From contig CM065878.1 in the NCBI GenBank assembly GCA_033439255.1, forward strand, positions 1,550,001-1,614,000: DNA of 64,000 bases, read 5' to 3'. The notes beneath the pieces were generated by a model. It had not been told where the DNA came from, made no database searches, and saw only the letters and a program-made list of their open reading frames with translations. The position numbers were made by a program, and so were the translations under genes. Position 1 is the stretch's first letter. Every line of letters begins with the position of its first letter. This document shows positions 9,675 to 16,580 of this stretch, piece by piece. This stretch comes from Hericium rajendrae. Lineage: Eukaryota > Basidiomycota > Agaricomycetes > Russulales > Hericiaceae.

Positions 9675-11625
9675 TTATCGTCTTGGCACACCGCGGCCTC
9701 GTCCCCTCAACGCACGGGCTGCCGCTCCGGGTGGCGCTCTGGGACCAGGGCTCGGCTGGACGGGTGCGATCAGTGAAAATTTGATGAAACACCAGCTGAA
9801 CAACCTACCTGCTCACTCTGAGGGTTCCTAACAGTCTCATCCACACTAACGATCAAGCATGCAGCCTCCACAGCGCTGCTGATGGCGTTGACCTTGATGA
9901 GACTGGGCTCCCAGACGAAGGCCTCCATGTTGTCGCGAACTCCTTCCGAACCATCGACATCAACACCGATCCATTTCTCACCATTTGCGTGCTTCATGCG
10001 AAGCTTGTTCAGGATGTCCGTCGAATCGAGACCTGCGTTGTCACAGATTTGTCGGGGAATGATCTCCAGAGCTTTGGCGAAAGCAATTTGGACAAGCTGC
10101 AGTTTCCCTGGGATTGAGAGGGCATGCTTGCGAACATGGGCCGAGAGATCCATCTAAGTCAATTCATGTGAGAAAACACAAGCCCGAGTTAACGCGACGT
10201 AAAGCGCACCTCGATTGCGCCACCACCAGCGACGACCTCACCGTTCTTCACCGCACGCTTTACCACCATAATGGCGTCATGCAGACTACGTTCGACCTCC
10301 TCGATGAACTGCTCAGCACCACCGCGCAGGATGAGTGTGCAAGTTTTCGCCCTCGGGCATCCCTCGAAAACGTTGTAACGTTCGCCTCCAATCTGCCTCT
10401 CATCGAAGCGTTCGCAAGTACCAAGATGCTCCCTAGAGATATCGGCAGTCGTCGATTGGATAGATCCGCCTACCGCCTGGACAACTCGGCGCAAATCGCC
10501 AGCGGGTACACGACCAGCACAAAAGATATCCCGGTCGGCGAACCATTGCGTGGCCAGATCGCCGATAGGAAGCTTGCTGAGCACGACCTTGGCACCAGTC
10601 TTCTCTATATCCTGCAGTTTCCTATAAATGATCTCCCATTCGGCGTCCACAATCGCTTGATAATCCGAGACCGCATCGACGCGAACCTCAGCATTGTCTT
10701 TCTCGGCCTTCAGCTCGAGCTCGACATTGAGAGAAAGGATGAGTGGGTTTTGGAAAGACTTGGGCTGTTGTTCGGCACCAGCGTACGTGAACGTCTTCTT
10801 GAATGCGACACCATGGATGAGCAGGGAATCTGCCATTCCGCCTCCGGGGATCTTCTTCACGCCGATCAAGGACTCGTCCAAATCTTCGGGGTCAAGCGAC
10901 TGAACAGCGTCTACAACCATTTTTGCGAAGAAAGGCTTCTCCGAATGGATCAATTTTGATGACATCGACGTCGATGCGCACTTTAGGAGCAGTGATCGGA
11001 ATTTTCTAAGATGCAAATCAGACATTGAATCGGAGGACAGATAGTGGTATACGCACTCGGGACTGGATTTGTCCACGGTGATCTGAATTTCCTTTATCCG
11101 ATCAATGGCCTGGTAGAAATGTTATAAGATACTAGTTAACAAGATGAACGATGGCACATACGATCTGGGAGGCCTGACGGAAGCCCTTCATGATGATATG
11201 CGGGCTGACGTCCTCCTCAATATAACCCCGAATCTCCTTCAAGAATTGCGCAGCCAGAAGCACGACAGTGGTCGTTCCATCGCCCACCTCCGCGTCTTGG
11301 GCACGAGCAATGTCGACCAAAGTCCTTGCCGCAGGATGGACGATTTCGAGCAACTTCAGGATGGTCGCGCCGTCATTCGTAATCTGCGCTTCGCCTCGTT
11401 CGTTGACGATCAACTTATCCATGCCTCTTGGTCCGAGTGTGCTCGAAAGCGTCTCCGCAATTGCAAGACACGCGGAGATGTTGGAGAGCAGCTGCCCTTT
11501 TCCTTGAGAGGTATCTGTGCCCTCCTTGAGGAGGACAACAGTAGGTTGCTGTCCAAAATCAATCAGGGATATATTACCACAATGAAGATAATTCAGTAGC
11601 TCACCATCGGCAGTCCGCGCTGCAT
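9675..11625 (-). CDS. CCT7: T-complex protein 1 subunit eta (CCT7 chaperonin)
   Basis: Six exons (11625-11605, 11548-11162, 11109-11057, 11005-10210, 10153-9809, 9755-9675) give exactly 560 residues, the normal length for this subunit, with all phases matching. The equatorial ATPase motifs are present: [35 protein letters not shown], and [14 protein letters not shown] with the catalytic Asp. The apical domain contains [19 protein letters not shown]. The C-terminus ends [13 protein letters not shown], the Gly/Arg tail typical of CCT eta. The protein is one of eight subunits of the cytosolic TRiC ring that folds actin and tubulin. The first coding exon is only 21 nt (MQRGLPM), so a search by homology alone would probably miss the true start. 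Confidence 0.93.
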
Positions 11626-11843: not shown

Positions 11844-14800
11844 ATGTCTCCAATTCCCCTATTTTTTGCAGGCTCTGACGAGGAGGACGATGCAAAAGTC
11901 CCCGCGGGGGACACTATGAGCATCGACGCGCCGAATACGTCTATGGAGGGCGGGCCCTCAGCTACCACGGACCATCAGCCAGAGAAACGACTTTTCCTCC
12001 CGAGTAGTGATGATGAAGACGAGAACACTCCTGGTTCGCGTTTCAGGACTCCTCGCTCGCAACAACTTGACTCGTTGTTCGGAGACGAAGAGCCATTGGA
12101 TCTTGGTGAGGAAGTCGAGCTGCCTCCCTTCCAGAAATCCCCGAGAGCCAGGAGCGTATCGAGCTCTTCTTCGCATCCTGCTCCAAGGTCTTCATCCCCT
12201 GCGTCTTCTCTACATGGCTCACCACCTCCCGCCAAGAAACGTCGTCTGTCTCCTCCACGTACACAGAAGCCAGTCTTCCGGTCTGCTTACCTGGGATCAT
12301 TCATTGTGGGCAACGCCTGGAGTACTGTCAGAGGCAAGGGGTACATTAAATCGGGGGATGAGATCCGCATTGAACGAGATGATCCGGACGAGGATGTGCC
12401 TCCAGCGAAGAGCCGCCCTGCTGCGAACGGGAAGAAGGGTAAAAGAAAACAGCTCAACATAACGACAATGTTCAAGGGCCAATCGTCCAAACCCGTCAAA
12501 AAGAAGACGAACACGATTGTCCGAATCACAAACAAGCGCGGATTCGGTGCGTTCTCATCTAGCTAATCCCTATTTATCTTAATTGTCATGTAGAGTTTGG
12601 ACGTCTGCCCCAGGATGTCGCTATTTGGGTCTCAAAATTGCTCGAGCTCGGTATGATGTGACTGAATCACTTGGCTATGTTTAGCGTTACTCATGCATCG
12701 CAGGAATTATCGACTTCAGAGGGGGCACGATGATTGACTGTCCTGAGACTCTTCATTCTGGCGCAGATCTCATCGTCTCGCTTTCTCTCTATATCAAAGC
12801 CAAGGCTTTCAAGCCTGTCGGACTTTCAACCGCGGACAGGCCAAAGTCGCATTTGAGGATGGTCGTGAAACCTCCGATGAGCAAGCGCTTCGCGAGCGCA
12901 AGAGCGCATTGTTACATCTCTTCGACATCCTTTTGTTGAAGCCAGAAAGTGGCAACGACGTGTCGAAGTTGCGGAAGCAGGCAGATGGCGAGCTCGACCA
13001 CGATGATCTGAAGCAGCTCACTCAGGTGCCCGGCAAAAACGTGAAGGCCAAAAAACAGAGATCGTAGGTGATGGCGAGGAAGTCGAGGTAGAGGGAGACG
13101 GTGAGGAGCTCTCCGACGGTGAACTCAACGTTATATACAAGCGGTAAGCCAAGGCACTTCTGTTCTATTCCATCGTTCTAAGCCCTTCTGTCTGGCAGAG
13201 CCCAAAAGAATGACCAGACTATGGCTGAGATGGACGCCGCGGATACCTTCGTACTCTCGCTTCGAGGCTACCAAAAGCAAGCTTTGTGGTAAGATCAACT
13301 CTTCGCTGGTGAAACCTATGCTCATGATGCTTAGTTGGATGCATTCATTGGAAATGGGACTCATGTCTGCGCGAGAGGCCGGGTCGATGCACCCGCTATG
13401 GAACGAGTAGGTCTATGTATAATTTCAGGTTTTCTGTACTCATGTATGGTGCAAGATACCGTTTCCCCACCGAGCCCATAGATGGTGTCTATGATTTGAC
13501 CGCCGAGGAGCAGCCTTTCTACTTCAACCCGTATTCAGGCGAACTTAGCTTGGAGTTCCCGAAGGCTGAAAGGAAATGTCGAGGCGGTATTCTTGCGTGC
13601 GTTCATTGTATAATCCCATTCAAATATATGCTAAAGTCTTGATGGTCTCTACAGGGACGGTATGTCTCCACTAAAGCTTTGCCATGTCATACATTCTCAT
13701 ATGCTCGGAATTTATGGCGCCCTCGATCTTGACAGAAAGTTCGTCCAATCTGAATATTTCACTGTGCAGCTTTACTCATGCTATGATATAGTGGGAATGG
13801 GAAAGACGATCATGATATCTGCTCTGATTCACACCAATCGCGGGCCAGACACGACACCGACAGCAAACGACGAGCCGCAGGTCACCAGACATCGACAGCT
13901 AAAGCTTGACAGCACCTTTCGCGTGAAGTCCCAGACCTCCCAATTATCCAAGGGCCCCGCGGCGACCCTTATAGTGGCTCCTACATCGTTGCTAACGCAA
14001 TGGCAGGAGGAGTTGCAGAAGTGCAGCAAGGCAGGGACTGTCAAGACTTTTGTTTGGCATGGCACGAATCGACTCGACCTGGATGCCGTTATGAGTGATG
14101 ATGAAACCGTTAACATCGTCATCACTTCGTACGGTGTTCTTGCTTCGGAGCACGCCAAACCCGCGACTTCGTCGCCTCTATATCGCAGTAAGGTGACTTC
14201 TAGTTCGCACTCGCAGCATCCATTGACGAGTTGCAGATGAGTGGCTACGTGTCGTCCTTGATGAGGCCCATCATTGCAAAAATAGATCAAGTAAGACGGC
14301 GAAGGCTGTATGCGCCTTGCGTGCTCGGCGTCGCTGGGCCGTCACCGGAACTCCTATCGTGAACAGGCTTGAGGATCTTTATTCACTACTGTGGGTTCAT
14401 TCACACATGAGTGTTGACTTGGGCTTATTCTTTCGTGATGCAGTAAATTCTTGGATTTCACACCTTGGTCGGACTATGCCTTCTTCCGCTCGTACGTACT
14501 TCTCAATCTCTATTTGCTTTGTAGCGGCTTACATTCTACTTGGCAGATTCATTACCCTCCCATTCCTTGCTCACGATCCGAAGGCAATCGAAATCGTACA
14601 GGTCATCTTGGAGAGTGTTCTTCTTCGCCGAGAAAAAAATATGCGCGACAGCGATGGCAAGCGCATCGTTGAACTCCCAGCGAAAGAGGTTCGTCACGTT
14701 CTTATCTCCCCAATCAAATAATAACCAGACTTTCTAGGTTGTGGTCGAAATGCTCAAATTCTCACCCTCGGAACGCAAGATCTATGACTCGATATACAGT

Positions 14801-16309
14801 CATGCGAAGAGAGATTTCGAACAACTGGCCGCCAAAGGTCTCGTCAGCCGCAACTATACCCACATCTTGGCCATGCTTATGCGGTAGGCGGTGCCAGTCA
14901 TGATCTACCGATTCATTCTGACCCGCTTGAGCAGACTGCGTCGTGCTGTGTTGCACCCAAATCTTGTCCTGTCTGAGGAAACGACGCAACCTGCCGGTAA
15001 CGGCAGTGTCAACGTCAATACCATGATCAAACGCTTCGCCGAGTCTGTAGACGACGCCGGTACTAGCACTCAAAAGGGAAATTCGTATGCGGAGGATGTC
15101 CTGAACAAGCTGGGTACCATCGACACGGACGCAGATGAATGCCCATTGTGCCTCGACGTTATGGACGTACCAATGATGTTCCCTGAATGTATGCACCGTT
15201 GGTTAGTGTTTGGTTTGCACGTCCCAGATTTGATTTTCTGATATCTTATGGTTTGATAGCTGCAAGGATTGCGCCATTGGTTTCCTCGAATCTTGTGCGG
15301 CAAAAGAAGAGGACGGCCGCTGTCCAACTTGTAATCGTGGACCGGTAAAGGTGCGGTCATTTTCCCCATCCTTAGGGTCCGTCTCTGATTCCTGAATCAG
15401 GAGAGCGATCTGCTTGAAGTCGTCAAGCCAAGGAAGCGTGAAGAAAATGACACATTTCTTGGCTCACAGCAGTCGGTACCCGAAGTCACCCTTCGACGCA
15501 ACGACTTTCGGATGTCCACCAAGCTGGACGCGCTTGTCCAGAATCTGCGTATGTGACCCTCTCAAAACCTTCTCTGCTCACATTTATATCGATTACCAAT
15601 AGGATGTCTGCAAGATCAGGATCCATGCTTCCGCGCGGTGGTGTTCTCGCAATTCACTAGCTTTTTAGACCTCATCCAAATTGTTCTTGAACGGGAGAAG
15701 CTCCCTTGGTACCGCTTTGATGGGTCCATGGATGTCCGACGGAGAAACGAGGCTGTCACAGAGTTCAAGGCACCGTCGCGGAAGCCCAAAGTGCTCATCA
15801 TTAGTCTGAAGGCTGGCGGTGTTGGACTGAATGTACTTTTTTGCGGCTTTTGAAAAATTTTGACTTTGACTGATTGATATTTTTATGCAGTTGACTACGG
15901 CGAATCACGTTTTCATGGTACGTCGCTCAGCTGTCTGTGCTTCTGGACGCTGTGTCTTAGACTCGCATTAGATGGATTGTTGGTGGAATGCCGCGACCGA
16001 GAATCAAGGTATGCTGTTTCCATTCTGAAAAAGAATATCACTCAACTGCGACTTGCAGCCATCGACCGTGTGCACAGAATCGGCCAAGAACAGACGGTGT
16101 ATGTGAAGCACTTCGTCGTGAGTTTTCCTGAGCTGCGTGTCACTACATATTTACTCATCGAGTTGATAGGTGGAAGATACCATCGAAGGTCGCATTTTAC
16201 AGATACAGAAGCGCAAGACGGCTCTCGTGAAGGAGGCCTTCAAAGGTGGAAAAGGCGGCACAGATCCGGACAGCATAGAGAACCTGAATATCATGTTTGG
16301 AAAGCATAA
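11844..16309 (+). CDS. RAD5: Rad5/HLTF-type SWI2/SNF2 ATPase and RING ubiquitin ligase
   Basis: About 21 exons give roughly 1,130 residues: 11844-12546, 12594-12650, 12704-13143, 13199-13288, 13335-13406, 13456-13596, 13655-13659, 13736-13738, 13792-14187, 14237-14390, 14444-14491, 14547-14688, 14738-14883, 14935-15201, 15260-15350, 15401-15548, 15603-15832, 15891-15917, 15972-16008, 16059-16117 and 16170-16309. An acidic Ser-rich N-terminus is followed by a HIRAN domain ([19 protein letters not shown], about residue 150). The helicase has ADEMGMGKT (motif I), VVLDEAH (II) and VTGTPIVN (III). A C3HC4 RING (CPLCLDVM to CPTCNRGP) sits between the lobes, then come [10 protein letters not shown] and DRVHRIGQ. 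This order defines Rad5, the post-replication repair ubiquitin ligase. Two one-base losses (about 12839, and the A-run 13050-13055) break exon 3. A third near 16302 would explain why the frame overruns the expected MFGK end. The Met at 11829 is an alternative start. Confidence 0.88.
13655..13738 (+). other. Two RAD5 microexons: 5 nt (13655-13659) and 3 nt (13736-13738)
   Basis: The intron after 13596 (GTGCGT donor) ends in CTACAG at 13654. The next GTATGT donor starts at 13660, leaving a 5-nt exon. That intron ends in GACAG at 13735, and a GTTCGT donor starts at 13739, leaving a 3-nt exon. The next exon begins at 13792. Joining them gives A-D-E-M-G-M-G-K-T, the exact SNF2 motif I. Without the 3-nt exon the frame survives, but Glu-Met collapses to Val. 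Confidence 0.75.
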
Positions 16310-16580
16310 TCGGAAGATACCTCGTCTCACGACGATTTATTGCATAGCTATTTTTATGGAGAGAAAAGAACTTTATTGCCATAGAGCAGCCAAAATTTCT
16401 TGTTCGGGAAACACGAATGCATCCGACAGTCGCGATCATCGTCGTCACGATCCTCGTGCTCGGGATGGCTACATGTTAAAACGACAAGCATCCGTCGAGC
16501 CCATGCCGAGCAACCATCGCTATGATAGAGGCCTAATTAGAGGCTTTATGGACCATAAGCGCGGTGAAAAGCTGAGCAGG

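Follow-up and report, generated by a model that had tools for sequence, protein, structure and literature searches.

Two consecutive microexons of 5 and 3 nucleotides probably complete the ATP-binding motif of a RAD5-type helicase in a basidiomycete-like genome

The closest described counterparts of the locus discussed here are plant microexons, a term used below for exons of at most about 30 nt. The plant genes APC11 and VPS55 carry exons of a single nucleotide, and a rice gene contains adjacent microexons of 5 and 12 nt (PMC4674806, PMC8831610). The plant exons share with the RAD5 pair a length of 1-5 nt between ordinary introns, the occurrence of adjacent pairs and the ease with which they are missed by annotation. 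The sequence-only reading of the present DNA had placed a 3-nt exon near the physical lower limit for recognition, a claim that is overstated, single-nucleotide exons being on record for Arabidopsis and further plants (PMC4674806, PMC8831610). A basidiomycete parallel is provided by the P450 genes of Phanerochaete chrysosporium, for which small exons are described, the shortest reported being 6 bp (PMC1184071); these genes, like RAD5, combine many small introns with microexons. Literature searches on fungal and basidiomycete microexons, on SNF2 intron positions and on fungal intron gain brought up no account of consecutive 5- and 3-nt fungal exons or of intron crowding in SNF2 motif I. In the gene described here, the Glu-Met part of motif I is very probably encoded by two such microexons, 5 and 3 nt long, which follow one another directly, are included constitutively and are set off by three short spliceosomal introns within four codons.

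The RAD5-type gene and its predicted microexons

The window, i.e., the whole stretch of 64,000 nt that was analysed, carries on its plus strand a RAD5/HLTF-type gene with approximate ends at 11878 and 16320, assigned from the gene model, from Pfam and from the match to the solved RAD5 chain 6l8n, the source of which we take to be Kluyveromyces lactis. The domain order is HIRAN, SNF2 N-lobe, RING-like insert and helicase C-lobe. The HIRAN domain upstream of the helicase part is recognised by Pfam (PF08797, E 7e-13, 48.7 bits versus a cut-off of 24.7), as are the SNF2 N-lobe (PF00176, E 7.1e-63) and the helicase C-lobe (PF00271, E 4.4e-21) in the part that starts at 13055. Between the lobes, residues 497-542 match PF13923 (E 2.1e-5, 24.7 bits, under the cut-off of 27) and PF00097 (20.6 bits, under the cut-off of 21), and the metal-binding Cys/His pattern of this RING-like stretch is visible by eye. 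When the first 759 residues of the frame from 13055 are used as query, 6l8n is matched over query residues 35-758/759 with an E value of 2e-137. The identity as a Rad5 helicase, which had been proposed from the letters, is thus borne out by the HIRAN, SNF2, RING-like and Helicase_C matches together with 6l8n.

The gene model contains 20 introns spanning 12547 to 16169. Its spliced frame runs without stops from 13055 to 16350, across 18 introns and beyond the last helicase residues; in the stretch 16280-16350 it continues without a stop beyond the point where RAD5 proteins usually terminate (...NLNIMFG), the end being expected near 16310. Between the HIRAN and helicase parts the reading frame changes twice within 12817-13093 (near 12835 and 13050), and the second change adjoins a run of six A at 13049-13054. 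Single GT-AG introns able to close these changes number 27 for the first and 18 for the second; the changes could reflect unmodelled introns or 1-nt sequence errors, or decay. A DNA search of the own genome for a second copy or other haplotype of RAD5 found none, matching the site itself only. A gene that resembles a chaperonin (CCT), as judged by eye from its translation, neighbours RAD5 on the opposite (minus) strand, at window positions 10189-11570.

The region of motif I is laid out, all on the plus strand, as follows. An exon at 13456..13596 (...GGTATTCTTGC) ends with the reading C-R-G-G-I-L-A, of whose last codon only GC is present. A 58-nt intron at 13597..13654 (GTGCGT...TACAG, phase 2 in the Ala codon) separates it from the microexon GGACG at 13655..13659, which completes Ala, encodes Asp and starts Glu. 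Next come a 76-nt intron at 13660..13735 (GTATGT...GACAG, phase 1 in the Glu codon) and the microexon AAA at 13736..13738, which completes Glu and starts Met. Finally, a 53-nt intron at 13739..13791 (GTTCGT...TATAG, phase 1 in the Met codon) leads to an exon at 13792..14187 that starts TGGGAATGGGAAAGACG. Each of the two tiny exons, 5 and 3 nt long, has AG before it and GT after it, and their coordinates and letters agree with those read earlier. Joining GC, GGACG, AAA and TGG... yields ADEMGMGKT.

All GT-AG partitions of the 195 nt between the flanking exons (13597-13791) were enumerated and compared with the pattern N-GAY-GAR-A. The parse with GGACG and AAA is the sole one that restores ADEM, which confirms that both microexons are required for motif I, and it is unique at minimum intron lengths of 30, 35, 40, 45 and 50 nt; permitting GC donors (minimum intron 40 nt) adds zero further parses. 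Two other 8-nt inserts stay in frame at a minimum intron of 40 nt, namely TCTTGATG alone and GGACG+TTC, the latter arising from a tandem acceptor 4 nt further on, and both were rejected as neither encodes Glu-Met. A blind splice-aware search for motif I returned the same three-intron parse, again the sole one in the RAD5 locus. At the aligned place 6l8n reads GGILADEMGLGKT, with GGILADEMG at the position equivalent to the rebuilt motif, and the restored residues are therefore those expected. The genome has two exact occurrences of the uninterrupted pattern GAYGARATGGGNHTNGGNAARAC, one in L040 and one in L041.

Shuffles and counts in real stretches led to the rejection of chance as the origin of this parse. 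No N-GAY-GAR-A partition of any kind occurred in 20000 dinucleotide shuffles, and of the 432 GT...AG stretches with a length of 195 nt that the two strands of the window contain, the RAD5 site is the only one that fits. A wider count took in GT...AG stretches of 120-249 nt on both strands of 334180 nt, made up of the window and 25 other SNF2 loci, and 35 of 146234 fitted. Thirteen of these lie in the window, all around the RAD5 site with shifted ends; the other 22 lie in locus L049 and stem from two parses, one a single piece of 8 nt and one, on the opposite strand, a set of 4+2+2 nt. Both parses lie outside the motif I of L049, which is found with one intron, and are taken for chance.

Introns in motif I of the SNF2 family

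The SNF2 loci of this genome offer a comparison for the crowding of introns in RAD5. Twenty-six loci were drawn from 57 HMM matches, with the omission of four similar ones situated close to the ends of contigs (C4:4250, C2:655, C8:55094 and C5:4540). Motif I was defined as the 12 codons G-x-x-A-D-E-M-G-x-G-K-T and searched with a splice-aware pattern allowing up to three introns, the patterns having been drawn up after the RAD5 case had been seen. The first pattern parsed 18 of the 26 loci, with 18 introns. A wider one with at most one intron, applied to the eight remaining loci, parsed four more (three with one intron and one without), and L046, L017, L055 and L056 stayed unparsed. Wrong-strand and reversed-sequence controls with up to three introns gave 0 of 26 loci each, and antisense controls of the wider pattern 0 of 9.

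At least one intron lies inside motif I in 16 of the 22 parsed loci, the exceptions being L019, L021, L023, L029, L031 and L051, and the 21 introns found in total occupy 12 different positions. Three of them belong to RAD5 and two each to L014, L052 and L057, so that the exons enclosed within the motif measure 5 and 3 nt in RAD5, 23 nt in L014, 11 nt in L052 and 17 nt in L057. The first RAD5 intron position is common to RAD5 and L057, and the second to RAD5 and L013; such shared positions may represent old introns or parallel gains, a single genome being compatible with either. The nearest solved chain of L014 is lymphoid-specific helicase, by a small margin over SNF2L2. L052, which has a RING downstream, presumably resembles RAD16, and the piece of it that was searched matched no solved relative.

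Three further observations concern the same motif in other loci. L048 has a likely exon of 22 nt over the second half of motif I; its second intron, which lies just past the motif (outside the 12 codons and uncounted), has two possible acceptor places. At L010:1427-1530, a GC-AG intron of 53 nt (GCAAGT...TTCAG) falls exactly between the motif-I Met and Gly, the position occupied by a GT-AG intron in L009. L017 approximates a near-copy of L015 and reads ADKMGLGK followed by Ala, versus ADEMGLGKT in L015, and is possibly an inactive duplicate.

For motifs II and III, also taken as 12 codons in the same 26 loci, 18 loci were parsed with 5 introns (motif II, with a widened pattern, the first version having been too strict) and 16 loci with 5 introns (motif III). 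Motif I is richer in introns than either: it holds 18 of 28 introns in 18 of 52 locus-windows (binomial P 0.0013) and, without RAD5, 15 of 25 introns in 17 of 49 locus-windows (P 0.0085), an excess that is suggestive because the test is post hoc, the loci are interrelated and the patterns are self-made and unequal in strictness. Seen in this way, introns crowd into a single conserved motif, and RAD5 appears to be the most extreme example.

Splicing of the tiny exons and rival readings

Splice-site matrices were built from the 17 other introns of the RAD5 gene, which were themselves scored leave-one-out. The donors of the three motif-I introns score, in order, 5.4, 9.5 and 5.8 (the 17 others 1.7-9.4) and the acceptors 1.9, 4.5 and 7.0 (others -3.7 to 8.9). 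The donor of the 76-nt intron thus exceeds all 17 others and that behind AAA exceeds 9 of 17, its hexamer GTTCGT being reused as a donor at 14689 in the same gene. The three introns had been described as all of normal size, which holds for those of 58 and 53 nt and fails for that of 76 nt, the longest of the 20 (the other 19 measure 46-58 nt). The pyrimidine-T-N-A branch-point candidates of this long intron have positions -37, -22 and -4 relative to the acceptor; it is without a good candidate at the usual distance, and this counts against the explanation favoured here.

Under that explanation, constitutive inclusion of both microexons, each short intron would be recognised as a unit across itself, i.e., by intron definition, in which case exon length would matter little and tiny exons could be spliced one intron at a time. 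The short introns and ordinary splice sites suggest that the three introns are removed successively. Once the 76-nt intron is out, AAA would form the end of a normal exon and supply bases -3 to -1 of the last donor, GTTCGT; the opposite order of removal would also be possible. The introns may have been gained separately at different places of the motif, the exons thus not being selected as a cassette. Inclusion would be the normal state, because the other in-frame products all alter motif I and the remainder shift the frame or meet a stop. Several mis-splicing products are possible. Keeping the first intron would lead to a stop at 13640-13642, skipping GGACG (5 nt) or both microexons (8 nt) would shift the frame, and use of the tandem acceptor would place TTC for AAA and give ADVLGMGKT.

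Skipping of AAA alone would keep the frame, as this exon is 3 nt long, and replace Glu-Met by Val (ADVGMGKT), as the sequence-only reading had stated. The on/off switch that it built on this product is unsupported, the donors being anything but weak (the best of the gene at the 76-nt intron, and above the majority behind AAA), and constitutive splicing therefore fits at least as well. It is very unlikely that AAA is an alternative microexon whose skipping produces, in a regulated ratio, a RAD5 with a damaged ATP site. Besides the frame that survives skipping, precedents speak for such regulation, namely the regulated 20-nt microexon of Trichoderma virens Xlr2 (PMC11121469) and the alternative 3-bp exon of Drosophila homothorax (PMC7392893). 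However, the splice sites here are ordinary to strong and the neighbouring 5-nt exon is no multiple of three. The motif-I microexons of the three other SNF2 loci (23, 17 and 11 nt) would likewise shift the frame when skipped, because none is a multiple of three, and no cassette logic can be seen in these loci taken together. With sites that are not weak and these exon lengths, there is no sign of regulation.

Retention of the introns at 13660-13735 and 13739-13791 is very unlikely as the true structure. The reading frame continues through the 132 nt at 13660-13791 and meets no stop there, so keeping both introns would insert 43 extra residues inside motif I (ADGMSPLK...YDIVGMGKT), a choice open to a gene finder without microexon logic. 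Such a protein would nevertheless destroy a motif that is uninterrupted at the protein level in 6l8n and in 17 of 17 other paralogues parsed with the first pattern, and the exact restoration of ADEM, matched by none of the shuffles, would be left unexplained, as would the gene's best-scoring donor. The retained form is possible as an occasional product. A decaying or misassembled gene, in which motif I is truly lost and the microexon parse arose by chance, is highly improbable: the two frame changes at 12817-13093, one of them beside the A6 run, are what it would account for, but introns could account for them too, chance parses are rare, the spliced helicase part runs through 18 introns without a stop and resembles RAD5 over its whole length, and the assembly holds a single copy. 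It is scarcely credible that the site is a stwintron (nested twin intron), in which an external intron has one of its splice signals interrupted by an internal one and nothing remains in the mRNA, for although back-to-back short introns are the setting reported for fungal stwintrons, AAA must remain in the mRNA to encode Glu-Met in the only ADEM parse and the RAD5 introns are thus not of this type.

Significance and comparison with known systems

If RNA confirms the constitutive microexons of RAD5, they would represent fungal exons of 5 and 3 nt that lie back to back within an essential motif, and would offer a clean natural test of minimum exon size where short introns are each recognised as a unit. 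ATPases of this kind would come out of annotation pipelines broken or too long, and the enzyme would then look inactive. Moreover, the crowding of introns at one motif in many paralogues provides a route to ask whether certain sequences favour intron gain, a question that can be addressed with existing fungal genomes and RNA data. A broader idea, which we consider unlikely, is that SNF2 motif I acts as a hot spot for intron gain in this fungal lineage, with the ATP-binding loops of several repair and chromatin motors (RAD5 and three others) placed on exons of 3-23 nt. Were this true, an entire class of DNA motors would need faithful microexon splicing to be active, lower splicing fidelity would disarm several motors together, and mis-splicing of RAD5 would give an in-frame, motor-dead, RING-bearing protein.

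Set against the described systems, the RAD5 pair differs in several respects. Inclusion of the plant microexons in mRNA is shown by RT-PCR or RNA-seq, and they are conserved across plants, whereas the RAD5 pair is known from the sequence of one fungal genome; on the other hand, the RAD5 pair encodes the core of an ATP-binding motif, unlike the plant exons. The minimum in the P. chrysosporium P450 genes is 6 bp, versus consecutive exons of 5 and 3 nt in RAD5. T. virens Xlr2 is, like RAD5, a fungal protein in which a microexon encodes part of a conserved domain (PMC11121469); however, its 20-nt exon is far longer and its inclusion depends on glucose, whereas inclusion of the RAD5 pair is probably constitutive. 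Drosophila homothorax shares with RAD5 an exon of 3 nt (PMC7392893), which there results from the use of an alternative 5' splice site in an exon of 48 bp, whereas AAA of RAD5 has introns on both sides. Tiny exons as such are therefore already known. Unusual here are the occurrence of a 5- and 3-nt pair in a basidiomycete-like genome and the many introns crowded into motif I.
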